From the NCBI RefSeq assembly GCF_038806765.1, contig NZ_CP152389.1, positions 2,852,001 through 2,916,000 of the forward strand: a stretch of DNA of 64,000 nt. Reading direction: 5' to 3'. This DNA is from Mucilaginibacter sp. CSA2-8R. GTDB taxonomy: Bacteria > Bacteroidota > Bacteroidia > Sphingobacteriales > Sphingobacteriaceae. The notes beneath the pieces were generated by a model. It worked only from the letters and a program-made list of their open reading frames with translations, was not told the DNA's origin and ran no database searches. Made by a program: the position numbers and the translations under genes. Below are positions 1 through 40,250 of the stretch, piece after piece (positions within the stretch are counted from its first letter, which is position 1; each line of letters starts with the position of its first letter).

Positions 1-220
1 GATTGAGCGTAAAGAAAATGTACCAAACCCATGGATTATTTTCCGGATCAGTCCTGGTATGGGTAAAATACGCAACCCTGAGTCGCAACTATATTTTGTA
101 ACGCAAGGCAGGCAAAACCTGTACAATAACTTTGTGGCGGTAAAAAAACAAATGCTTGGCCCATTATTTATCGACCAGTGGACACGCGTATTCAAAAACA
201 GCAAGCTAATTTACAAATAA
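1..220 (+). CDS. C-terminal fragment of an unrecognised protein
   Basis: An open frame enters from the left edge (first whole codon at base 2) and ends at a TAA at 218-220, giving 72 residues. The tail is basic and aromatic and ends in KLIYK. No family is recognised. A strong hairpin terminator follows 13 bases after the stop, which supports this being the real 3' end of a gene. The start and most of the protein lie outside the window. Confidence 0.7.
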   Translation, partial: IERKENVPNPWIIFRISPGMGKIRNPESQLYFVTQGRQNLYNNFVAVKKQMLGPLFIDQWTRVFKNSKLIYK

Positions 221-232
221 CCGAAATTACTT

Positions 233-277
233 AAACCAACAAGGCCCGGTTGCTTTCGCACCGGGCCTTGTTGGTTT
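233..277. terminator. Strong bidirectional intrinsic terminator
   Basis: An 18-base perfect inverted repeat (arms 233-250 and 260-277, GC-rich core GGCCCGGT/ACCGGGCC) has a 9-base loop. The arms begin with AAA and end with TTT. It lies between the convergent ends of the left-edge gene and the purF-like gene and probably serves both. Confidence 0.85.
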
Positions 278-295
278 AGTATAGTATGTTGGTGC

Positions 296-2203
296 TTACA
301 TATAGGCACGTTGGTTTTTACCTTCCATCCAGTTAGCAAAGGCGCGGTTAACAACCTTGTTGCCGCCGGGTGTAGGGTAATTACCCGAAAAGTACCAGTC
401 GCCCAAATGGTCGGGACATGCTGTATGCAAGTTGTCCAGTGTTTGGTAAATAACCTGCACCTCTGCTTTGATATTTTTAGGCGTGATGATCTGCGCTATC
501 CGATCTGAAATTTGCTGATCGGTAAACGGCTCGTAGATGGCTTTAACGTAGTTTTCTACTTCTTCTTTAGGCTGCGACAAGCTCGCTTTCGCCTTTTGAT
601 AAGCTTCTACCAAAATATTTTCCTGTCCGCTCTCTTTCAGCAAGCTCACTGCTGCTTCAAACGCCACAAACTCGCCCATACGCGACATATCAATGCCGTA
701 GCAGTCGGGGTAACGAATTTGCGGTGCTGATGATACCACGATAATACGTTTTGGGCCTAAACGGTCAAGTATCTTCAGAATACTTTGCTTTAACGTAGTG
801 CCACGTACTATAGAGTCATCCAAAACCACCAGTGTGTCAGCATCGCGGTTAATAAGGCCGTAGGTGGTATCGTACACGTGCGCCACCATCTCGCTGCGGT
901 CGGCATCCTGGGTGATGAAGGTACGCAGCTTAACATCCTTAATGGCAATTTTCTCCACCCGCGGCGCCATGCTCAGCACTTCGCCCAGCTCCTCATCACT
1001 AATCTTGTCTTCGCGGTTTAACAGGCGGTCGCGTTGGTATTGTTTAATGTATTTATTAACCCCTTCAACCATGCCGTAAAAAGCAATTTCGGCGGTGTTA
1101 GGAATGTAGGAGAATACCGTGTTCTTTACATCATAATTTACAGCTTCCAGTATCTGTGCACATAACAAACGGCCTAACTGCTTACGCTCACGGTAGATAG
1201 ATGCATCACTGCCGCGCGAGAAATAGATACGCTCAAACGAACATGATTTTTTTTCTTTAGGCTCGCTAAACTGCTGCTCGCTGAAACTGCCATCCTTTTT
1301 GATAATCAGTGCGTGACCGGGCTTAACTTCCTGTATTTTATCAAGCGGAATATTAAAGGCAGTTTGAATAGCCGGACGCTCCGAGGTAACTACTACAACT
1401 TCATCATCGTAATAATAAAATGCCGGACGAATACCGGATGGGTCGCGCATTACAAATGCATCGCCATGGCCCAAAATACCGGCTATGGTGTAACCGCCAT
1501 CCCAGTTTTTGGCTGATTTTCTTAAAATCTTGGCTACGTTTAAGTTGTCGCCAATCATTTTAGTGATCTCAATATTATCGTCGTTACCCTCGCGTTTAAA
1601 CTGGTCAAACAAACCCTGTACTTCCGAATCCAGGAAGTGGCCAATTTTTTCGAGTACCGTTACGGTGTCAGCTTTTTCTTTAGGATGCTGCCCCAGCGCA
1701 TACAATTGCTGCAGTAATTCGTCAACATTGGTCATGTTAAAGTTACCGGCAATTACGAGGTTACGGGTCATCCAGTTGTTTTGGCGCAAAAACGGGTGAC
1801 AGCTTTCAATACTGTTTTTACCGTGGGTGCCATAACGCAAGTGCCCCAGTAAAACCTCGCCGGTAAAGCTGATGTTTTCTTTGAGCCAATCGGCATCCTT
1901 CATCTTCTCGGGATGGAGTTTTTCTACCTCAGCAAACTTCTTCTGGATGTATTCGAAAATGTCGGCTACGGCGTTACTGGCCATTGAACGGTGGCGGCTG
2001 ATGTATCGGTTGCCCGGCTCCACGTTCAACTTAATAGTAGCCACACCGGCGCCATCCTGGCCGCGGTTGTGCTGCTTTTCCATCAATAAGTATAGCTTAT
2101 TTAAGCCATACATTGCCGTACCATATTTTTGCTGATAATATGAGAGGGGTTTGCGCAACCGTATAAAAGCTACGCCGCATTCATGCTTAATCTGATCGCT
2201 CAT
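296..2203 (-). CDS. Amidophosphoribosyltransferase-type enzyme (long Bacteroidota form)
   Basis: This 635-residue protein has an N-terminal class II (Ntn) glutamine amidotransferase domain and a C-terminal phosphoribosyltransferase domain. It should be a cytosolic enzyme transferring glutamine-derived ammonia to PRPP, the first step of purine synthesis. The nucleophile is Cys9 (HECGVAF), and HNRGQDGAG and GHLRYGTHG follow. The PRPP loop DDSIVRGTT starts at about residue 462. I chose the ATG at 2203 because it places the Cys close to the N-terminus; an in-frame GTG at 2221 would add six residues. It is over 100 residues longer than classical PurF. The usual HNGN turn reads GNFN, so Gly102 (E. 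coli numbering) appears to be Phe. It may be a paralogue rather than the main PurF, so no gene symbol is given. Confidence 0.85.
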   Translation of the reverse strand: MSDQIKHECGVAFIRLRKPLSYYQQKYGTAMYGLNKLYLLMEKQHNRGQDGAGVATIKLNVEPGNRYISRHRSMASNAVADIFEYIQKKFAEVEKLHPEKMKDADWLKENISFTGEVLLGHLRYGTHGKNSIESCHPFLRQNNWMTRNLVIAGNFNMTNVDELLQQLYALGQHPKEKADTVTVLEKIGHFLDSEVQGLFDQFKREGNDDNIEITKMIGDNLNVAKILRKSAKNWDGGYTIAGILGHGDAFVMRDPSGIRPAFYYYDDEVVVVTSERPAIQTAFNIPLDKIQEVKPGHALIIKKDGSFSEQQFSEPKEKKSCSFERIYFSRGSDASIYRERKQLGRLLCAQILEAVNYDVKNTVFSYIPNTAEIAFYGMVEGVNKYIKQYQRDRLLNREDKISDEELGEVLSMAPRVEKIAIKDVKLRTFITQDADRSEMVAHVYDTTYGLINRDADTLVVLDDSIVRGTTLKQSILKILDRLGPKRIIVVSSAPQIRYPDCYGIDMSRMGEFVAFEAAVSLLKESGQENILVEAYQKAKASLSQPKEEVENYVKAIYEPFTDQQISDRIAQIITPKNIKAEVQVIYQTLDNLHTACPDHLGDWYFSGNYPTPGGNKVVNRAFANWMEGKNQRAYM

Positions 2204-2486
2204 GATTTGAAATGAAGCCACGAAAGTACACTTTTTCGCGGGTTATACACGACTTAGTTTGTCATGAAAAAAGCATTAAAAACGCGGGATTTGATATAGT
2301 GTTTGTTATTAGTTAAGCAGCTGCTTGTTAGCTGATTATTAGTAAAGCGCTTATTTAACACATGAGGTGAGTAACCCTTAAAGTGATAAAAAACAGGTTA
2401 GTCTCTCACTTTTTCTGACCTTAAAATCGCGTATTTTCGTTATTTAAATTGCAGTGCACGTTGAGTAGATAAAGTATAAGAAAACT

Positions 2487-3983
2487 CTACATCAGGTTAG
2501 CAAGCAAATCGGGGAATATTCCTAACAGCACAACAATGGCCGATAACACAACTATGGTTACCAATATTTTTTTGTGCGAGGGATACTCCCGGCCTTCAGA
2601 TTCCTGATTTTTAAGAAACAAGTATAAGGGGATTTTGATATAATAAAACAGTGATACAACAGTAGTGACAGCGCCTGTTACCAATAAGGCCAGAAGCATA
2701 ACGTTATGCCCTTGCTGATAAACTTCATAAACGGCCGAAAACACAATGACCTTAGCATTAAAACCTGCCGAAACCGGTATACCGGTAAGTGATATGAGTA
2801 ATATTACGAAACAAACTGATGCCACCGGGTACTTAAAACCTAAGCCTTTATACTCATCAAGGCTTTCGGCCTTCATGGTGTTAGCAAAATAACCGGCCAG
2901 CATCAATGCACCTAAATTAGCCACAGCATATGCAGCCAGGTAAAAGTTTAAAGCCTTAATGCCTTGCGCACTAAATGTAACTACCGCCATAAGCGCAAAG
3001 CCAGTGTGGCCTATACCCGAGTAAGCCAGCAGTCGCTTTACGTTTTGCTGCCATACTGCAGCGAAGTTGCCTGCTACCATGGTAACGATGCCTGCTACCG
3101 ATAATAGCGTAATAAAGTCAACCTTGTTCCAGGCCAGATTGGCTATAAAAGGCGTTAAAAAGGTAACTAATAATCCAAAACCTGCAATTTTAGGTAAAGT
3201 AGACAGGTAAGCGGTAACCGGTGTGGCTGCGCCCTGATAAACATCGGGTACCCAGAAGTGTAATGGCACTACCGATAATTTAAAGCCAATGCCCGCCAAA
3301 ATTAAAACGACAGCCAGCGTTACCATGGCCGTGTCGGCCTGTTGCAAATAGGTAATTAGATTACCGTCAAATAAATTAAGCGTGCCGCTCAGGCCGTAAA
3401 ACAAGGAGATACCATATAACATCACGGCTGATGCCGCCATACCAAATAAGACATATTTTAAGCCGGCCTCTGCACTAAAGCCGCTTTCGGTACGGTAGGC
3501 TACCAGGAGATATGAGGCGATAGAAACCATTTCTACCGATATAAAGATGGTGAGCAAGGTGCCAGACATCACCATGAGGTGCAAACCTAAAACCGATGCG
3601 GTAATAATGGTATAAGCATCGCCCAAACCTTTGCCATGCTTGCGAAGCTGATCATCCCACGGGAAAAATAGTACAACGGCAAACGCGGCAGCATCAATAA
3701 TCATTTTAAGCACAATGTTGCTGTGATGCAAAATCAGGTTGCTGTTAAATAAAAACAGCACATGGTCATCCGTTTCGATATACTCGCCCCAATTGGCTAC
3801 CAGCACTAATAAAAAACCAGCGCAGGTGAGCATCCGGCTGGCGCGACCGCGATTGCTTGCATAAACTAAATCACAAGCCATTACCAGCAAAAACAGCACA
3901 CTGAGGCATAGTTCCGGACGGAACATGCTTAAACTATCAATGACGTTATTAAGCTGGTCTGATATAGGCAATAATTGCGGCAT
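2487..3983 (-). CDS. nuoN: NADH-quinone oxidoreductase subunit N
   Basis: NuoN is one of three antiporter-like proton-pumping membrane subunits of complex I. The 498 residues form about 14 hydrophobic helices. Family signatures visible are the TM5 glutamate (ISVEMVSIASYL) and the broken-helix lysine region around KLSVVPLHFWVPDVYQGA with TPVTAYLSTLPK. It starts at ATG 3983, three bases after the nuoM stop. It is the last gene of the nuoH-N block; 283 bases separate it from the purF-like gene on the same strand. Length is normal and no disruption is seen. Confidence 0.95.
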   Translation of the reverse strand: MPQLLPISDQLNNVIDSLSMFRPELCLSVLFLLVMACDLVYASNRGRASRMLTCAGFLLVLVANWGEYIETDDHVLFLFNSNLILHHSNIVLKMIIDAAAFAVVLFFPWDDQLRKHGKGLGDAYTIITASVLGLHLMVMSGTLLTIFISVEMVSIASYLLVAYRTESGFSAEAGLKYVLFGMAASAVMLYGISLFYGLSGTLNLFDGNLITYLQQADTAMVTLAVVLILAGIGFKLSVVPLHFWVPDVYQGAATPVTAYLSTLPKIAGFGLLVTFLTPFIANLAWNKVDFITLLSVAGIVTMVAGNFAAVWQQNVKRLLAYSGIGHTGFALMAVVTFSAQGIKALNFYLAAYAVANLGALMLAGYFANTMKAESLDEYKGLGFKYPVASVCFVILLISLTGIPVSAGFNAKVIVFSAVYEVYQQGHNVMLLALLVTGAVTTVVSLFYYIKIPLYLFLKNQESEGREYPSHKKILVTIVVLSAIVVLLGIFPDLLANLM

Positions 3984-13608: not shown

Positions 13609-15512
13609 TCCGCATTTTTTTGCTGGCTTGCCTTAACCTGGCTTGGTTAGGTGCAGCCGCCCAAAACTTTTACCCCGTTGCCGATATTCCTAAAAACCTG
13701 TTGCCGTATGCCAGCGCCGTGGTGCGCAACATGGAAACAGTGACCGAGGTTAAAGACGTCAATACAACGGTCAATCATTACAAAGTGGCGGTTACTATTC
13801 TTAATAAAAATGGTGAAGACAATACTGACATGGTAGTATGGCACGATAAAGGACGGCGGATTAAATACATTAAGGGCATAATTTATGACGAATACGGCAA
13901 ACAGGTTGACAAATTTTCGGAGAAAAACTTTTTAGATTTTAGCGCGGCAGATGGTTTTTCGATGTTTGTAGATACCCGCCTTAAGCATTACAAACCATCG
14001 GTGATGACCTACCCGTACACGTTAGAGTATGAGTATGAGGTGCAGTCGCGCCAAACGTTAAACTTTGAAGACTGGAACCCTAATGGCAGTACCGGAACCG
14101 CCGTACAACATAGCGTTTACAAATTTATCTGCCCGGCAGATTTTGCCATCCGTTATAAAGAAATGAACTATGCGGGCAAGGCAGACATCAGCGCAGGGCC
14201 GGCCGGTCAGAAAGTGTATACGTGGGAAGCTAAGAATCTCACTGCTCAGCGAAACGAACCTTACAGCCCACGCCCTGATACTTACGAAACCGTAGTAAAA
14301 ATTGTGCCCGAAAAATTTATGTACGAAGGCTACAGCGGTTCGTTTACCAACTGGAATGATTTAGGCAAATGGATTTACGATAAATTGCTTACCGGCCGCA
14401 CCACCCTGCCACCGGCCACCATTGCCGATATGCACAGCCTTACCGACACTATTAAAGAGGCAAAGCTGAAAGCAAAAGCCATTTACGAGTACATGCAGCG
14501 CAAAAGCAGGTACGTAAGTATACAGGTGGGCATTGGCGGTTATCAGCCTTTTTCGGCAGCTGATGTAGATAGATTAAGCTATGGTGATTGTAAAGGTTTG
14601 GTGAATTACACTCAGGCATTATTAAAGGCGGTTAACATTGATTCGTATTATTGCGTAGTGAATGCAGGCAGCATGAAGAAAAGCTTACTGCCCGACTTTG
14701 CCAGCATGACCCAAGCTAATCATATCATTTTATGCCTGCCGCTTAAAGGCGACACCACCTGGATGGAGTGCACCAGCAAAGACATCCCCTTTGGCTACCT
14801 TGGCGATTTTACCGACGACCGCTGGGTGCTGGCCTGTACCGGCGACGGCGGCAAGTTGATGCACACCCCTAAATACGGAACGGCCGACAGTAAACAGATA
14901 AGGAAAGCGATGCTGACATTGAAAGACGATGGTGAACTGAGTGGCAGCATGGCCACCACCTTTGAGGGTTGGCAATACGAAAACCGCCCTAATGTACCCG
15001 GCGAAACCAGCGATGAGATTAAAAAGGCACAAGAACGTTACGCCATTAACAACCTGGAGATAGGCAAATTATTACTGAAACCCGTTAAAACGCAGCAACC
15101 GGTAAACCACGAAGAAATGCAGTTTACGGCACGAGATTATGCGGCTTCGTCATCAGGGCGATTGTTTTTTATGGCTAACCTGGCCAACCGTTACACTTCG
15201 GTTCCGCGCGAAGTACGTAACCGCACTACTGATGTTTATATTAACAGAGGTTACACCGATGTAGACGAAATCGTATACCAAATTCCGTCGGGTTACAAAC
15301 TGGACAGTGCACCACTTTTGGTGAGCCTGCATAAACCGTTTGGCAATTTTACAGCCACGGCAACACTTAACGATAAAAACCAGGTAGTTTATAAGCGTAC
15401 GCTCGAAATAAAAGACGGTACTTATGCAAAATCGGCTTATGAAGATTTAGTAAATTTTTACCAGCGTGTAGCTGATGCCGATAGTTACAAGATTGCGCTA
15501 ATTAAAAATTAA
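13605..15512 (+). CDS. Secreted DUF3857/transglutaminase-like protein, catalytic residues present
   Basis: A 635-residue exported protein with a signal peptide (MIRIFLLACLNLAWLG, cleavage near AAA-QN). It has an N-terminal DUF3857 domain followed by a transglutaminase-like core. The triad-like positions are Cys in LSYGDCKGLVNY, His in QANHIILCLP and an acidic residue in WMECTSKDIPFG. Members of the fold are cysteine proteases or acyltransferases acting on peptides; the substrate here is unknown. It overlaps the upstream paralogue by ATGA, so the two are translationally coupled. Its TAA overlaps the stop of a small gene on the other strand. Confidence 0.88.
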   Translation: MIRIFLLACLNLAWLGAAAQNFYPVADIPKNLLPYASAVVRNMETVTEVKDVNTTVNHYKVAVTILNKNGEDNTDMVVWHDKGRRIKYIKGIIYDEYGKQVDKFSEKNFLDFSAADGFSMFVDTRLKHYKPSVMTYPYTLEYEYEVQSRQTLNFEDWNPNGSTGTAVQHSVYKFICPADFAIRYKEMNYAGKADISAGPAGQKVYTWEAKNLTAQRNEPYSPRPDTYETVVKIVPEKFMYEGYSGSFTNWNDLGKWIYDKLLTGRTTLPPATIADMHSLTDTIKEAKLKAKAIYEYMQRKSRYVSIQVGIGGYQPFSAADVDRLSYGDCKGLVNYTQALLKAVNIDSYYCVVNAGSMKKSLLPDFASMTQANHIILCLPLKGDTTWMECTSKDIPFGYLGDFTDDRWVLACTGDGGKLMHTPKYGTADSKQIRKAMLTLKDDGELSGSMATTFEGWQYENRPNVPGETSDEIKKAQERYAINNLEIGKLLLKPVKTQQPVNHEEMQFTARDYAASSSGRLFFMANLANRYTSVPREVRNRTTDVYINRGYTDVDEIVYQIPSGYKLDSAPLLVSLHKPFGNFTATATLNDKNQVVYKRTLEIKDGTYAKSAYEDLVNFYQRVADADSYKIALIKN

Positions 15513-15631
15513 CTAAAAAACACGATACCGAGGATGATGCCGACAATCATGATTACGTACAGCAATATCTCGTTACCAGCAAACTGCTTGTACTTGGTCC
15601 AAAACGAGTAATCTTCTTTAGGCTTGCTCAT
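15509..15631 (-). CDS. 40-residue single-pass membrane peptide
   Basis: A short frame with ATG at 15629-15631 encodes MSKPKEDYSFWTKYKQFAGN followed by a strongly hydrophobic helix (residues 21-39) and a final Ser. The polar, Lys/Tyr/Trp-rich N-terminus and one transmembrane helix are typical of small bacterial membrane proteins, with the N-terminus probably cytosolic. Its stop overlaps that of the convergent transglutaminase gene. It lies 116 bases from the end of msrB, on the same strand and downstream, with a hairpin between. No function is known to me. Confidence 0.65.
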   Translation of the reverse strand: MSKPKEDYSFWTKYKQFAGNEILLYVIMIVGIILGIVFFS

Positions 15632-15698
15632 GATTCCGGCAAAGATACAGCTTAGCGGCAGAAACAAAAACGGCGCGTAAATATCACTATTAAACTAA

Positions 15699-15732
15699 AA
15701 ACCCTGCGCACATCGCTGTACGCAGGGTTAAA
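15699..15732. terminator. Intrinsic terminator after msrB
   Basis: A 9-base perfect stem (AACCCTGCG / CGCAGGGTT) has a 12-base loop and A/T runs on both sides (AAAA before, TTAAAAA after). It lies just downstream of the msrB stop on the minus strand. Confidence 0.75.
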
Positions 15733-15746
15733 AACAACAACTCTTA

Positions 15747-16130
15747 TTATTTTTCGTCGGCAATGGGTACAAACTTCATCGATACGGAGTTAACACAGTG
15801 CCGGGTATTTTTAGCAGTAAAGCGTTCGCCTAAAAATACGTGCCCTAAATGTGCACCGCAGTTAGCACACAATATTTCTATCCGGCGTCCGTCGTCATCA
15901 GTTTCGCGCCTAACGGCACCTGGTATCTCATCATCAAAGCTCGGCCAGCCGCAAAACGATTCAAACTTATCTTCGCTGCGGTATAAAGGTGCATCGCAAC
16001 GCCGGCACACATAAAGTCCTTGTGCTTTATTGTTCAGCAATTCGCCTGTAAACGGCCGCTCCGTCCCTTTGTATAAAATTACCCTTTCTTCTTCGGGTGT
16101 TAAGATGTTATATTTTTCTTGATCTGCCAT
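15747..16130 (-). CDS. msrB: Peptide-methionine (R)-S-oxide reductase
   Basis: MsrB repairs methionine-R-sulfoxide in oxidised proteins in the cytosol. The 127 residues contain the whole domain: zinc ligands Cys42/Cys45 (CRRC) and Cys88/Cys91 (CANC), the substrate region [11 protein letters not shown] and GHVFLGERF, and the catalytic Cys112 in RHCVNSVSM. Length and motifs are those of a one-domain MsrB without MsrA fusion. ATG at 16130. A hairpin follows, and an inverted repeat lies 46 bases upstream of the start. Confidence 0.96.
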
Positions 16131-16175
16131 ATATTTACCTCACCGATGGTATGGTGATTACGACAATATACGTAT

Positions 16176-16208
16176 AATACTCAGCTTGGTTTTTACAAGC
16201 TGAGTATT
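16176..16208. repeat. Perfect 13-base inverted repeat upstream of msrB
   Basis: The arms AATACTCAGCTTG (16176-16188) and CAAGCTGAGTATT (16196-16208) flank a 7-base loop. There is no T-run on either side, so it is either a non-canonical terminator for the SDR gene or a protein-binding site in front of msrB. Confidence 0.6.
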
Positions 16209-16281
16209 GACTTTACTTTGACTAAACAACAGCAGGTCGTGCTTAATCGTCGTTAATTATCATCAAGCTATCTCTAAAAAG

Positions 16282-17043
16282 CTAAAAAGACTTTTGAGCA
16301 GTTGGGCGCACCACCAGTTCATTCACATCTACGTCTTCGGGCTGCTCAATGGCAAATGCAGCGGCACGAGCAATTGCTTCGGCAGGCAGCGTGTTCAATC
16401 GAAATTGTTCTACTGCAGCTTTTCTCAGTTCCGGATCAGAAATGCCATTAGCCAGTTCAGATTCAGTTGCGCCTGGCGCTACAACGGTCACGCGTATCTT
16501 GTCGCTTACCTCCTGGCGTAAACCATCGCTTAGGGCACGCACTGCAAATTTAGTAGCGCTATACACCGAAGAGGTTGGGCCTACCCACCGGTCGCCTACC
16601 GAGGTAATGTTAATAAACTGTCCGCTGTTGTTGGCTTCAAAGTGCGGTAATGCCGCGGCTATGCCATGCAATACCCCTTTAATGTTTACGTCTATCATTT
16701 GGTGCCACTCGTTTACTTTATACTGATTGAGCATTGATAGAGGCATCACACCGGCATTGTTCACCATTACATCAACGCTGCCAAACGTTTGCAGCGCAAA
16801 TGCTGCAAAAGCTTTAAAGTTTTCGGCATCGGTAACATCGAGGCTAAATACGGCGGCGGCTCCGCCTTTGGCAATTATATCCTGTTTAATAATTTCGAGC
16901 CGGTCGGTGCGGCGCGCACCCAAAACCACCCTGGCACCCTTAGCAGCTAAATGCCGGGCTATAGCTTCGCCAATACCGCTGCTGGCACCGCTAATTAATA
17001 CTACTTTGTTTTGCATGGAAAGATTTTGATTTGCTGTGTTCAT
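16282..17043 (-). CDS. Short-chain dehydrogenase/reductase (classical SDR)
   Basis: This 253-residue cytosolic NAD(P)-dependent oxidoreductase has the Rossmann nucleotide motif SGASSGIG, GARRTDRLE (the arginines suggest NADP preference), NNAGVMPLS and the catalytic Ser/Tyr/Lys set in TSSVYSATKFAV. I took ATG 17043 (MNTANQNLSMQNK); a longer frame to 17094 adds a Cys-rich, non-homologous extension, and ATG at MQNKVVLI is also possible. It is divergent from an AraC-type regulator starting at 17200, a common pairing in which the regulator controls the reductase. The substrate cannot be told. Confidence 0.92.
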   Translation of the reverse strand: MNTANQNLSMQNKVVLISGASSGIGEAIARHLAAKGARVVLGARRTDRLEIIKQDIIAKGGAAAVFSLDVTDAENFKAFAAFALQTFGSVDVMVNNAGVMPLSMLNQYKVNEWHQMIDVNIKGVLHGIAAALPHFEANNSGQFINITSVGDRWVGPTSSVYSATKFAVRALSDGLRQEVSDKIRVTVVAPGATESELANGISDPELRKAAVEQFRLNTLPAEAIARAAAFAIEQPEDVDVNELVVRPTAQKSF

Positions 17044-35790: not shown

Positions 35791-36366
35791 ATGCATAACC
35801 TCATACTAAGCAATTTTTCCATGCATATTACGCTTAACCCGCACGAACAGCGGCAAGCGCTGGCACTGCTGCAGCAAAAAAGCGTTAACAAACGTACTTT
35901 TTTGCTGCAGCCCGGTGAGGTTAACCGGCAGATTTATTTTGTAACCAAAGGATGCCTACGCATGTTTTACACCGACCAGGCAGGGCAACAACACAATATT
36001 TGCTTTTACCCCGAAAATTGGTGGGCTTGTGATATTGTAAGCTTTTTTAAAGAAAAACCTGCCATTAACGCCATACAAGCGTTAGAAGATACTGAAGTGT
36101 CTTATTTTACACTGTCACGCCTGGAAGAACTGTTTGCAAACGTGCCAAAATTTGAGCGTTTTTTTCGCATCCTCACTCAAAATGGCTTTGAGCTTTATCA
36201 GCGTCGTATTACGGCTAACCTTTCAAAAAACGCCGAAGAACGATACCGTCAGTTTCGGAAGCAATATCCGGGGCTGGAACAACGCATTGCGCAAAAGCAA
36301 ATTGCTGCCTACCTGGGTATCACCCCTACTTTTTTAAGCCTGTTACGTAAAGACTTTGTGGCGTAG
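35791..36366 (+). CDS. Crp/Fnr-family transcriptional regulator
   Basis: A 191-residue regulator. The cNMP-binding beta roll spans about 15-130 (LLQPGEVNRQIYFVTKGCLRMFY, then CFYPENWWACDIVSFF). The C-terminal part is a Crp-type winged helix (QRIAQKQIAAYLGITPTFLSLLRK). There is no iron-sulfur cysteine set. It closes a three-gene co-directional group with the SnoaL-like and DUF1330 genes and may respond to the same signal. ATG at 35791; the internal ATG at residue 11 is also possible. Confidence 0.88.
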   Translation: MHNLILSNFSMHITLNPHEQRQALALLQQKSVNKRTFLLQPGEVNRQIYFVTKGCLRMFYTDQAGQQHNICFYPENWWACDIVSFFKEKPAINAIQALEDTEVSYFTLSRLEELFANVPKFERFFRILTQNGFELYQRRITANLSKNAEERYRQFRKQYPGLEQRIAQKQIAAYLGITPTFLSLLRKDFVA

Positions 36367-36446: not shown

Positions 36447-37583
36447 ATGTTTTTACCTGCAACGCAAACCTTAACTCCTGAACAGGCATTTCAGTTTATT
36501 GCTCAAAACGCTTCTTCTGTTGATTATGACGGCGCTTTTCCGAAAGAAGAATTTGATAAGCTACGGGAGGCCCGATTGATGAGTATCAGTTTACCTGATC
36601 AGCCGCTGGACTCCTCTAAAAAGCATACCGCTAAATTGCTGCAACTTTTAAAAGCAATTGGCAAAGCCAGCTTACCTGTAGGCCGTGTTTATGAAGGCCA
36701 TATTAATGCGTTGCTACTAATTGAGTTATACGGCAACCAACAGCAGCAGCAGCAATGGTTTGCTGACGCCACCGAACAACATTTGTTTGGCGTGTGGAAC
36801 ACACAAGCACAAGACGGTGTAAAAATACACGATTTAGGCCAAGGCCGTTACCGGCTGGAAGGCTGCAAAACGTTTTGCTCGGGTGCTGGTCAGGTAACCA
36901 GGCCGGTTATTACCGCCGATTGGATTTCGCCGGAACGCAAGGGCTGGCAGATGTGCGTGTTGCCGATGGAGCGTTTAGCACAGCCCACCATTGACCGCGA
37001 ATTTTGGAAACCACTGGGTATGCGCGCTTCGGCCAGTTTTAAGGTTGATTTTACAGGACTGGAGATTACAGATGATGAACTTTTAGGCCTACCGAACGCT
37101 TACTACCAGCAACCTTACTTTAGCGGCGGCGCTATCCGCTTTGCAGCCGTGCAGTTGGGCGGCGCCGAAGCCGTACTGATAGCTACGCACGCTTTACTGC
37201 GCCAAATGAACCGTACGGATGATGCCTTTCAGCGTGCACGGGTGGCCGAGATGACCTATTTAATAGAGAGTGGAAACCTTTGGCTAAAACAAGCGGGCAA
37301 AAAAACAGACCGGTGGCTGAAACAGCCCGAGGCCACCGAAAAGCTATTGGCTTACGCCAACATGACCCGCACCGTTATTGAAGATATTTGCCTGCGCTGC
37401 ATGCAGCTGGCCGAACGCTCGGTGGGCTCACGCGGATTAATACGCCCGCAAGCGCTGGAGCGTATACACCGCGACTTAACCACTTACCTGCGCCAGCCCG
37501 CACCCGACGCAACTTTAGTAGCCATTGGCGAATACGTACTGAAGCAGGAAAACACTAACCAACTTTGGCATGCTGCAAAATAA
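36447..37583 (+). CDS. Acyl-CoA dehydrogenase-superfamily flavoprotein
   Basis: A 378-residue cytosolic flavoprotein. The N-terminal helical domain (about 1-110) is followed by the beta domain (GVWNTQAQDGVKI, YRLEGCKTFCSGAG, WKPLGMRASASFKVDF) and a C-terminal helical bundle. The usual YEGT-type ending of classical dehydrogenases is not seen; instead there is RIHRDLTTYLRQPAPD, somewhat like flavin-dependent hydroxylases of this fold. It could be a dehydrogenase of an acyl or acyl-carrier group, or a hydroxylase. It overlaps the PIG-L gene by 14 bases and opens a cluster with a methyltransferase and a glycosyltransferase. Confidence 0.85.
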   Translation: MFLPATQTLTPEQAFQFIAQNASSVDYDGAFPKEEFDKLREARLMSISLPDQPLDSSKKHTAKLLQLLKAIGKASLPVGRVYEGHINALLLIELYGNQQQQQQWFADATEQHLFGVWNTQAQDGVKIHDLGQGRYRLEGCKTFCSGAGQVTRPVITADWISPERKGWQMCVLPMERLAQPTIDREFWKPLGMRASASFKVDFTGLEITDDELLGLPNAYYQQPYFSGGAIRFAAVQLGGAEAVLIATHALLRQMNRTDDAFQRARVAEMTYLIESGNLWLKQAGKKTDRWLKQPEATEKLLAYANMTRTVIEDICLRCMQLAERSVGSRGLIRPQALERIHRDLTTYLRQPAPDATLVAIGEYVLKQENTNQLWHAAK

Positions 37584-38316
37584 TTGGATACAGCAGGCAC
37601 AACCTTTAACCCATGCCGAGTTAAAGGCTTTTGGCCCTACCCTGGTAATTGCACCGCATGCAGATGATGAATCTTTAGGTTGCGGCGGTACTATTGCTTT
37701 GTTGCGGCAAGTAGGCATACCGGTTTTTATTTTATTGGTGAGCGATGGCTCTATGTCGCATCCCAACTCAAAAAAATATCCGGCCCAAAAACTAACGCAG
37801 CTTCGGGATAATGAATTACTGGCCGCTGCAGCGATCTTGGATGTACCGGCAAGTTATGTGCACTTTATGCATTTAAAAGACAGCCAGGTGCCGCACCAAG
37901 CTGATACCGGCTTTGAAGAAGCCTCTGCAGCTATGTCTAACATCATCTCTGGCATCAGCCCGCAAACTGTTTTAGTGCCGTGGCGGCGAGATCCGCATCC
38001 CGATCATCGGGCTACCTGGCAACTGGTTAAAAAAGCCATGAGCGTTTCAGCTTTAAAATGCCGCGTACTCGAATATCTGGTATGGCTATGGGAACGGGCC
38101 GATGCACAAGACTTACCCCTTACCGGAGAGATGAAAACTTTTAAAGTTGATATTGCTTCGGTTTTAGAAAAAAAACACCAAGCCATCGCCGCACATTTAT
38201 CGCAAACCACATTATTGATTGATGACGATCCGCAGGGCTTTACTTTATCCCAGTATATGCTGTCCCACTTTGATCATCCGGCCGAATATTTTTTAGAACA
38301 ACTACCTGCATCATGA
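37570..38316 (+). CDS. PIG-L/LmbE-family deacetylase
   Basis: A 248-residue cytosolic zinc-dependent N-deacetylase. The metal motif APHADDESLGCGG is present, with MSHPNSKKYPAQKLTQ and the second-metal region PWRRDPHPDHRATWQL. Family members deacetylate GlcNAc-containing lipids, GlcNAc-inositol and related amino sugars. It overlaps the upstream dehydrogenase-like gene by 14 bases and the methyltransferase by ATGA, so the three are translationally coupled. Confidence 0.92.
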   Translation: MLQNNWIQQAQPLTHAELKAFGPTLVIAPHADDESLGCGGTIALLRQVGIPVFILLVSDGSMSHPNSKKYPAQKLTQLRDNELLAAAAILDVPASYVHFMHLKDSQVPHQADTGFEEASAAMSNIISGISPQTVLVPWRRDPHPDHRATWQLVKKAMSVSALKCRVLEYLVWLWERADAQDLPLTGEMKTFKVDIASVLEKKHQAIAAHLSQTTLLIDDDPQGFTLSQYMLSHFDHPAEYFLEQLPAS

Positions 38317-38927
38317 ACAAACCAGCACAAACCCTAACCGAAAGTTACTTTGACGATGTCTATCGCCATAATGACGACCCCTGGCAGTTTGAAACCAGCG
38401 AATACGAACGCCGCAAGTACGAGGCAACTGTGCAAGCTTTACCGCGGTCATCGTACCGGCAAGGGTTTGAAATTGGCTGCTCTATTGGTGTGTTAACCGA
38501 ACTATTGGCTGGGAAATGTCAGTCGTTGCTTTCTGTAGATACCTCCGAGAAGCCACTCATCCGTGCAAGGCAACGTTTAGCCAAGATGCCGCACGTTACG
38601 TTACAGAAAATGGAAGTACCCGATCAGTTTCCGGATTATAGCTTAGATCTGGTTGTGATGTCTGAAGTAGGCTATTACTTATCTATGCCCGATTTGCAGC
38701 GGCTTGCACAAAAAATCATCAATCAATTAAACGAGGGTGGTCAGTTGCTGCTGGTGCATTGGACACCCTTTGTGCATGACTACCCATTAACGGGCGACCA
38801 AGTGCACGAGACGTTTTTACAACTGAGCGGAGAAGAAAAACAATTTAAGCACTTAACCGGCCTGCGGGAAGATACCTACCGGCTTGATTTGTTTGAAAAA
38901 CAGGCTCAGGCGGAAAATGCAGAATAA
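38313..38927 (+). CDS. NodS-like SAM-dependent methyltransferase
   Basis: A 204-residue class I methyltransferase. The N-terminal block YFDDVYRHNDDPWQFETSEY with YERRKYEAT is that of the NodS family. The SAM motif is GFEIGCSIGVLTELLAG, the acidic residue after strand 2 is SVDTSEK, and VVMSEVGYYLS and LLLVHWTPF are also typical. NodS methylates the amino group of the de-N-acetylated glucosamine in Nod factor. It follows the PIG-L deacetylase with a 4-base overlap. Its last 83 bases overlap the end of the convergent glycosyltransferase. Confidence 0.92.
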   Translation: MNKPAQTLTESYFDDVYRHNDDPWQFETSEYERRKYEATVQALPRSSYRQGFEIGCSIGVLTELLAGKCQSLLSVDTSEKPLIRARQRLAKMPHVTLQKMEVPDQFPDYSLDLVVMSEVGYYLSMPDLQRLAQKIINQLNEGGQLLLVHWTPFVHDYPLTGDQVHETFLQLSGEEKQFKHLTGLREDTYRLDLFEKQAQAENAE

Positions 38928-40056
38928 ACTGCCTCAAAGCTGTTATTGCTTCTGCTACCGGCTGGTGTTCCTGGTGCTGCAACAGCGCCTGCCGGTGTAT
39001 CAAGGGTTCGACCTGGGCCCACAGAGCACCAAAATAATTTGCTTTGCCAACCTGTTGGTAAAGCCAGCCCGCCGAACTGCCGATTAATTGCGATACGGCC
39101 AGTAATTCAGAACAAGGCCCGGCGGCAATTGCCTTGCGTTCCCAGCAAGTGCGCAACCGTTTACGAGCAAAATATTTGGCCAGCAACACAGCGGCCGAAT
39201 CAACCATTTGCAGCTTACCCGATTGATGATCGGTTACCCATTTGTTAAGTTGCTCCGAAAAACCAACGGCCACCCGCCCTTGTAACCGCGCTGAGGTGTA
39301 CACTTTTACATCAAAGCTTTTCCGTATGCGGGCATCGTGTTTGAGCAGTGCTTCGTAAAATGCCATATCTTCCAGGTGTGGTACGCGTGGTAACCGGCCA
39401 ACATGCTTATACATCTGGCAGGTTACAGCCATGCTGGCTCCAAAAAACTGGAAATGCCTTGGCATCGGGTCGTGTTCCTGCGGATCAATCAGCGCTTCGG
39501 CTTTGGCCAAAAGGCACCGGTAAGTTACATCACGGAGGTGAAACTGCCTTGCATCACTGTACCCGGAAAGCGTTAGTATACGCCCGCCAACAGCATCATT
39601 ACCAGCCTCAATAGCGGCAATATTAAAATGCAACCACTGCCCATCCACTACCGTATCCCCATCGGTTGAAGCAATGATGCCGGCATCATTACCACTGATG
39701 GTTAGGCGATGATAAGCCGCATCCATCAATAGCCGCCGGGCGGTACCCACGTTGGCACAAGGCTTGGGCAAGTTAACTTGTTCAATAAGTAGTTGAAATT
39801 CGGGATACTGTTGCTGATAGTTTTTAGCAACCCGGTATGACCCGTCGTTGGAATTATTAATGAGTAGCAACACCTCATATATGTTAGCCGGATAGGTATT
39901 TCCTGTCGCATCCCGCTGGCAACGCAGTGCATTTAAGGTATGCATCAATCCTGCAGCCTCATTTTTTACGGGCACCACTACACACACTTTAACTTTGGGC
40001 TTAAGCGGCACATCACGAAACAGCGAAACGTTAATTTGCGGCAGGTCTATATTCAT
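38845..40056 (-). CDS. Family 2 glycosyltransferase
   Basis: A 403-residue cytosolic (no transmembrane helix apparent) GT-A enzyme. It has the nucleotide-binding strand KVCVVVPVKNEAAGL and SNDGSYRVA, the metal motif STDGDTVVDGQW, and a product region with GASMAVTCQM and PHLEDMAFYEALLKH. I used ATG 40056, one codon after a TTG. It is convergent with the three-gene set, and its end overlaps the methyltransferase gene by 83 bases; both tails are in frame and unbroken. Its donor and acceptor are unknown. It probably adds a sugar to the same product. Confidence 0.9.
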   Translation of the reverse strand: MNIDLPQINVSLFRDVPLKPKVKVCVVVPVKNEAAGLMHTLNALRCQRDATGNTYPANIYEVLLLINNSNDGSYRVAKNYQQQYPEFQLLIEQVNLPKPCANVGTARRLLMDAAYHRLTISGNDAGIIASTDGDTVVDGQWLHFNIAAIEAGNDAVGGRILTLSGYSDARQFHLRDVTYRCLLAKAEALIDPQEHDPMPRHFQFFGASMAVTCQMYKHVGRLPRVPHLEDMAFYEALLKHDARIRKSFDVKVYTSARLQGRVAVGFSEQLNKWVTDHQSGKLQMVDSAAVLLAKYFARKRLRTCWERKAIAAGPCSELLAVSQLIGSSAGWLYQQVGKANYFGALWAQVEPLIHRQALLQHQEHQPVAEAITALRQFILHFPPEPVFQTNQAGRYLPAGRLSA

Positions 40057-40250
40057 CAACTATCGGCTATCGGCTTATTTTACAAACCGTATACACAACG
40101 CAAGGTGATAATTATAGTTTGATATCAGTGGTAATTTGAACAAAAAATAAAATATTAATACAATTTTGTTCTTATTAAATAAAGAAGTCGCTGTGCGGTT
40201 TGAGTACCGAAGCACGCAAAAAGGGTGAAGATTTACTTCACCGCCCATTG

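Follow-up and report, generated by a model that had tools for sequence, protein, structure and literature searches.

Which product do four tightly packed genes of Mucilaginibacter sp. CSA2-8R make, which encode an acyl-CoA-dehydrogenase-fold flavoprotein (ACAD), a PIG-L family deacetylase, a NodS-like methyltransferase (MT) and a GT2 glycosyltransferase? The genes lie in a stretch of 64,000 nucleotides, here called the window, comprising positions 2,852,001-2,916,000 of the 5.34-Mb single-contig genome. A preliminary description of the window had proposed that these neighbours act as a unit in a pathway to an N-methylated amino-sugar conjugate. The comparisons reported here leave us with hardly any doubt that the four genes, referred to as the cassette, are one functional unit, and they point to a mobile or patchily inherited biosynthetic set that probably serves to make an N-methylated amino-sugar glycoside.

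The case for a unit comes from the distribution of the genes. Our main sample comprised 395 Bacteroidota genomes drawn evenly from the phylum. An MT profile detected MT in eight of them (241-297 bits), three weak matches of 102-124 bits being other proteins. ACAD, PIG-L and GT2 genes were located within a few kilobases of MT in all eight. Far from co-occurring rarely, the four neighbours are found together in these genomes as well as in other phyla, in agreement with the unit proposed initially. Among 121 genomes of the family, MT was present in 8, and the other 7 all had PIG-L and GT2 nearby, 5 of the 7 together with ACAD. When 25 chosen genomes were compared, the cassette ACAD occurred in 13 of 15 carriers versus none of 10 cassette-free congeners (Fisher 2e-5).

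The cassette is patchily distributed over at least five phyla (Bacteroidota, Deinococcota, Cyanobacteria, Proteobacteria of the Alpha, Beta and Gamma classes, and Actinobacteria) and is often borne on plasmids or megaplasmids. Replicons carrying it were found in Deinococcus, Nostoc, Streptomyces and Rubrobacter, in the Alphaproteobacteria sphingomonads (Sphingobium), Roseomonas, Bradyrhizobium, Komagataeibacter, Sulfitobacter, Paracoccus and Jiella, and further in Acinetobacter, Pandoraea, Comamonas, Cupriavidus and Legionella. Its composition varies to some extent: no PIG-L gene lies between ACAD and MT in Cupriavidus (in C. basilensis one is found about 3 kb off), and the Legionella cassette is devoid of ACAD. 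The closest named relative, from an uncultured Mucilaginibacter (L010; L numbers denote sequences compared here), is 72-82% identical over the cassette. None of the members of this genus in the sample, for which 12 congeners were listed, has the cassette, which suggests that it was acquired by transfer or lost repeatedly. The selenouridine-synthase-like gene flanking the window cassette, followed as a marker of the flank in cassette-free congeners, occurs in just 17 of 61 genomes and favours neither gain nor loss. With 49.0%, the GC content of the cassette is the highest of the whole window (43.9 +/- 1.9% for 3.6-kb segments).

The arrangement of the genes is compact (Table 1). ACAD and PIG-L overlap by 14 bases and PIG-L and MT by 4 bases (ATGA), exactly as described before. 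The plain tail-to-tail meeting of GT2 with the other genes had to be corrected, as the convergent 3' ends of GT2 and MT overlap by 83 bases (38845-38927); a convergent overlap is found in several relatives too, e.g. L010, L020 and L028. GT2 starts with a TTG at 40059 or, alternatively, with an ATG at 40056, the end given in the preliminary description. The families assigned initially to all four genes were borne out by Pfam matches, and none of the four proteins reached an NCBIfam equivalog cut-off. Promoter and terminator scans yielded signals that barely exceeded the shuffle expectation and were not used. Directly upstream of the window cassette lies a gene that, judged by sequence appearance, encodes a Crp/Fnr-like regulator. 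Homologues of it are located near the cassette in L010 and L021, and annotated Crp/Fnr genes near several alphaproteobacterial and Rubrobacter copies.

Table 1. Coordinates of the cassette genes in the window and of further features in the compared sequences.
Feature	Position	Strand	Length	Assignment or remark
ACAD	36447..37583	+	378 aa	Pfam Acyl-CoA_dh domains
PIG-L (LmbE) family N-deacetylase	37570..38316	+	248 aa	Pfam PF02585
NodS-like class I S-adenosylmethionine (SAM) methyltransferase (MT)	38313..38927	+	204 aa	Pfam PF05401
GT2 glycosyltransferase	38845..40059	-		Pfam PF00535 Glycos_transf_2
Deacetylase and METHYLTRANSFERASE	37570..38316 and 38313..38927	+		Adjoining pair PIG-L and MT
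Crp/Fnr-like regulator	35791-36366	+		Upstream of the window cassette
X (see text), genome of the window	2,980,724-2,981,851 (L116:8679-9869)	-		About 90 kb from the cassette, standing alone
Glycosyltransferases with methyltransferase domain, rhizobial	L129:3504-6416; L130:2378-5380		ca. 970-1000 aa	Annotated as glycosyltransferases
otsA-ACAD-PIGL-MT-GT-otsB, Comamonas antarctica plasmid	L069:3972-8968			Tightly packed
Large protein adjoining the cassette (genus g3)	L021:13765-17766; L022:1079-5086; L023:3801-7757		1318-1335 aa	
Arsenic-resistance genes	L036 (Rubrobacter indicoceani plasmid) 14392-16564; L071 (Sphingomonas parapaucimobilis) 196-3047			

The PIG-L protein matches PF02585 with 98.6 bits (cut-off 28.2), and its metal and catalytic residues H30, D32, D33, E34, H143, D145 and H146 are invariant in an alignment of 22 copies (PHxDDE ... 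HPDH). Its nearest solved relatives are a diacetylchitobiose deacetylase (94 bits) and the BshB enzymes. In the Rubrobacter cassette a NodB-type CE4 polysaccharide deacetylase stands in place of the missing PIG-L. One deacetylase thus seems to have been substituted for another, in support of a deacetylation step. Furthermore, PIG-L and MT are joined in a single open reading frame (ORF) in three genomes (L022, 451 aa; L024, 441 aa; L057, 468 aa). These fusions fit a deacetylase and a methyltransferase that work in turn on one and the same amine and, together with the co-occurrence of the genes, they sustain the deacetylation and methylation logic of the pathway as first proposed.

GT2 scores 38.1 bits with PF00535 (cut-off 23.3) and contains the motifs STDGD and LEDMAF; D133, D135, E230 and D231 (DXD-type) are invariant in 20 copies. 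MT had been placed in the NodS family. This holds for membership in the Pfam family (63.9 bits with PF05401), but not for NodS itself, as MT reaches 72.6 bits versus a cut-off of 300 for the NodS equivalog NF041650. Its nearest match in the PDB is 4isc (199 bits), an unnamed methyltransferase that probably belongs to the family of MT, followed by NodS (3ofj). In a maximum-likelihood tree, whose bootstrap was not fully settled and which has some long branches, four rhizobial NodS proteins form a clade of their own (100/100) outside the cassette MT group (91/90). As placed by this tree, NodS is a separate sister clade and no offshoot of the cassette MTs, and a Nod-factor origin of MT was rejected because NodS is not nested among them. 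Two rhizobial proteins annotated as glycosyltransferases (L129, L130) possess a cassette-like methyltransferase domain; these domains form a separate, well supported clade in the tree.

The flavoprotein had been described as one that could act on either an acyl group or an amine. Its Pfam Acyl-CoA_dh domains score about 28-34 bits. With a profile of 21 copies, the best PDB matches were DszC (122 bits) and MsuC (111 bits), followed by acyl-CoA dehydrogenases with 94 bits and less; the amino-sugar N-oxygenases or nitrososynthases KijD3 and DnmZ scored about 78-81 bits, below several acyl-CoA dehydrogenases. In the column of the catalytic Glu (Y-E-G-T motif), all five canonical acyl-CoA dehydrogenases carry Glu and all 21 cassette ACADs Gln (Gln350 in the window protein). 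A K-x-F-C-S-G-A motif is common to the cassette ACAD and DszC, and the scores remain below the equivalog cut-offs of both SfnB and DszC. An AlphaFold model, for which five sequences were used, was of insufficient quality (predicted local distance difference test, pLDDT, 56.6). Three traits of group D flavin monooxygenases, i.e. the ACAD fold, DszC and MsuC as nearest relatives and the absence of the catalytic Glu, are present. An acyl-CoA dehydrogenase domain is common to group D monooxygenases, some of which are N-hydroxylases (PMC6165268). A canonical acyl-CoA dehydrogenase was rejected as a candidate, and this role appears very unlikely because of the invariant Gln and of the proximity to DszC and MsuC. 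The acyl part of the initial assignment is thereby disfavoured, and the amine part persists: ACAD would most likely oxygenate nitrogen in the manner of group D monooxygenases. The whole genome contains no further PF00441 (Acyl-CoA_dh_1) protein besides the cassette ACAD; given this, classical beta-oxidation may be missing in the organism.

A fifth gene, X, accompanies the cassette. It was present in all 8 cassette genomes of the main sample versus 9 of the 387 others (Fisher p = 1.8e-12, relatedness not corrected). In two Deinococcus sequences (L027, L028) X and ACAD are fused into one protein of 780 aa, with X as its N-terminal and ACAD as its C-terminal half, and in several Dyadobacter X adjoins PIG-L. 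X has no Pfam match. Sequence matches are beta-glucosidases and beta-galactosidases, and its AlphaFold model (pLDDT 77.5; predicted template modelling score 0.84) resembles GH1 beta-glucosidases best (Foldseek E ~1e-14, TM 0.69); N143-E144 and E299 are conserved. On this evidence X is a GH1-like glycosidase. The idea that X belongs to a fixed module with a GT4 glycosyltransferase and glf (UDP-galactopyranose mutase) holds in L019, L025 and L058 and was abandoned, as X stands alone in the genome of the window.

The following scheme would account for the five proteins. GT2 would transfer an N-acetylated amino sugar (HexNAc) to an acceptor, from which PIG-L would strip the N-acetyl group. MT would N-methylate the same exposed amine, as suggested by the fusions. 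ACAD would then oxidize the methylated compound, most likely on nitrogen and by a monooxygenation of the group D type, and X would trim or transglycosylate the glycan. The result would be a glycoside that bears an N-methylated amino sugar and most likely serves stress protection rather than symbiosis. We infer the sugar identity, the acceptor, the order of steps, the N-oxidation and the physiological role, and we give the scheme as a whole an even chance of being right. A small glycoside could serve as acceptor, and the otsA...otsB operon of Comamonas makes trehalose a candidate. Alternatively, the acceptor could be a galactofuranose-containing core, because GT4-glf-X adjoins the cassette in L025 and L058 and GT4-glf in L028.

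These GT4 and glf neighbours, and three further glycosyltransferases preceding the cassette in Sphingobium, would suit an N-methylated amino-sugar lipid or a surface polysaccharide decoration with ACAD acting on an acyl chain, as lipid-linked or surface glycans are frequent substrates of GT2 and PIG-L enzymes. We regard this alternative as possible but doubtful. The catalytic Glu of ACAD is replaced throughout, the genome lacks another PF00441 acyl-CoA dehydrogenase, and neither a membrane nor an export gene is consistently attached. Moreover, no acyltransferase is seen, and genes for NodA and the NodIJ exporter are missing from the window ORFs and the annotated cassette regions; the preliminary description had already recorded the absence of an acyltransferase, a Nod export system and symbiosis genes. 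Without an acyltransferase and a canonical acyl-CoA dehydrogenase, the lipid part of the conjugate proposed there is no longer favoured.

The genes around the cassette bear on its physiological role. No more than about 7 kb separates the cassette from an HPII-type catalase gene in Sphingobium, on several Novosphingobium and Sphingomonas replicons and in Acinetobacter, Sulfitobacter, Cupriavidus basilensis and Dyadobacter bucti. The operon on the Comamonas antarctica plasmid, with overlaps at several junctions, places the cassette between the trehalose genes otsA and otsB. Its OtsA scores just under the OtsA equivalog cut-off (526.9 versus 564.85), and the product may therefore differ from trehalose-6-phosphate. 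In a second Comamonas otsA adjoins the cassette, otsAB lies downstream of it in Acinetobacter, and otsB and a GH65 gene lie upstream in Legionella. LigD/Ku genes are located beside the cassette in Bradyrhizobium and a general stress protein gene in Komagataeibacter. For a stress role, all this is suggestive only. Two side observations concern other neighbours. Arsenic-resistance genes (arsM, arsH, arsC, arsR) occur at most about 6-8 kb from the cassette in two unrelated bacteria. A large protein beside the cassette in one genus contains AMP-binding, carrier-protein and hexapeptide-repeat domains (checked in L021) and resembles an epsilon-poly-lysine-synthetase-like nonribosomal peptide synthetase (NRPS).

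The recurrence of catalase and trehalose genes also speaks against a stress-unrelated tailoring cassette for a secondary metabolite (antibiotic or signal) carried as cargo of plasmids or islands, as do the retention of a minimal set over several phyla without other biosynthetic genes and the lack of consistently attached polyketide synthase, NRPS or nucleotide-sugar genes. Such a cassette would explain the patchy distribution, the GC content above that of the rest of the window and the KijD3 and DnmZ matches, ACAD-fold N-oxygenases being typical of natural-product pathways; on balance, we find it improbable.

A modified low-molecular-weight thiol is more remote still. N-methylated bacillithiol exists, and its methyltransferase NmbA is reported in 63% of the bacillithiol-making Bacteroidota species (PMC12719100). 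With GT2 and PIG-L corresponding to BshA and BshB and MT to NmbA, the cassette could provide a related compound, and the stress context and the best NCBIfam matches of PIG-L, BshB2 and BshB1, would agree with this. However, PIG-L is far below both cut-offs (68.9 versus 182.5 for TIGR04001, BshB1; 71.6 versus 195.25 for TIGR04000, BshB2). The E-values of PIG-L proteins are bimodal, with cassette copies at 5e-82 or below and a second, BshB-like copy at 8e-23 or above in nearly all of the genomes compared. The cysteine ligase BshC is not near the cassette, and MT is found in 2% of the sampled genomes versus the 63% for NmbA. N-methyl-bacillithiol was rejected on cut-offs, separate BshB-like copy and distribution, and we consider any thiol product highly unlikely.

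A symbiosis-like lipo-chitooligosaccharide signal is scarcely credible and largely refuted: NodS is the nearest characterized solved relative of MT, the combination of deacetylase, N-methyltransferase and GT2 parallels NodB, NodS and NodC, and Rubrobacter has a CE4 deacetylase, but a NodA-like acyltransferase and NodIJ are lacking in the regions covered, GT2 has no NodC-like match, true NodS falls into a separate clade, and hosts such as Deinococcus, Nostoc and Acinetobacter do not nodulate.

Several observations weigh against the N-methylated amino-sugar glycoside favoured here. MT could methylate oxygen instead of nitrogen. The fetched flanks of L011, L012, L014, L015, L022 and L023 contain no ACAD, L016 has a short remnant only, and in L022 and L023 ACAD is absent genome-wide. 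As some members lack ACAD, oxidation may be dispensable. The Roseomonas cassette has no linked GT2, and the co-inheritance of X could have some other cause. Concerning stress, the window cassette itself has no stress genes as neighbours, and the counts given above come mostly from plasmids, which are possibly rich in stress genes, with no matched random background. The most far-reaching version, in which ACAD is an amino-sugar N-oxygenase, MT a sister lineage of NodS, and the product an N-methylated, N-oxidized amino-sugar glycoside, possibly with a trehalose or galactofuranose core, that confers stress protection across phyla, strikes us as unlikely.

The N-methylated amino-sugar glycoside would be the product of only three or four enzymes. 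A compact set conserved over five phyla, and frequent on plasmids of clinical as well as desiccation- or radiation-tolerant genera, is very likely to produce one specific, apparently undescribed molecule. It would give biochemical context to a share of the proteins labelled 'NodS', 'PIG-L' or 'acyl-CoA dehydrogenase'. In 5.39 million open papers, neither the cassette nor its product was found described under the terms used, subscription papers being outside our coverage.

The cassette was compared with known systems. With group D flavin monooxygenases (DszC, MsuC/SfnB, KijD3/DnmZ), ACAD shares the best PDB profile matches and the missing catalytic Glu; it differs by strong divergence, by the invariant Gln at this position and by the lack of an adjoining flavin reductase gene at most loci. 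Diacetylchitobiose deacetylase, which acts on N-acetylglucosamine oligomers, belongs to the same family as PIG-L, but sequence similarity is low. The 'Methyltransferase' 4isc, the closest profile match of MT, was deposited without any function found. The bacillithiol pathway (BshA/BshB/BshC, NmbA) has in common with the cassette the PIG-L deacetylase family and a presumed glucosamine chemistry; the PIG-L scores, the separate BshB-like copy, the missing BshC and a distribution unlike that of NmbA set it apart. Similar in logic is Nod-factor biosynthesis by NodC, NodB and NodS, with its order of glycosyl transfer, N-deacetylation and N-methylation and a methyltransferase of the same Pfam family. 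In contrast, the cassette has PIG-L instead of the CE4 enzyme NodB, an unrelated GT2, an extra flavoprotein and an MT outside the NodS clade and below the NodS equivalog cut-off. Unlike the real nod locus L128, it includes neither NodA nor NodIJ genes in the regions covered, and no link to symbiosis was found. The proteins are members of known enzyme families in an arrangement that we have not found described, which resembles part of Nod-factor assembly without belonging to the Nod pathway.

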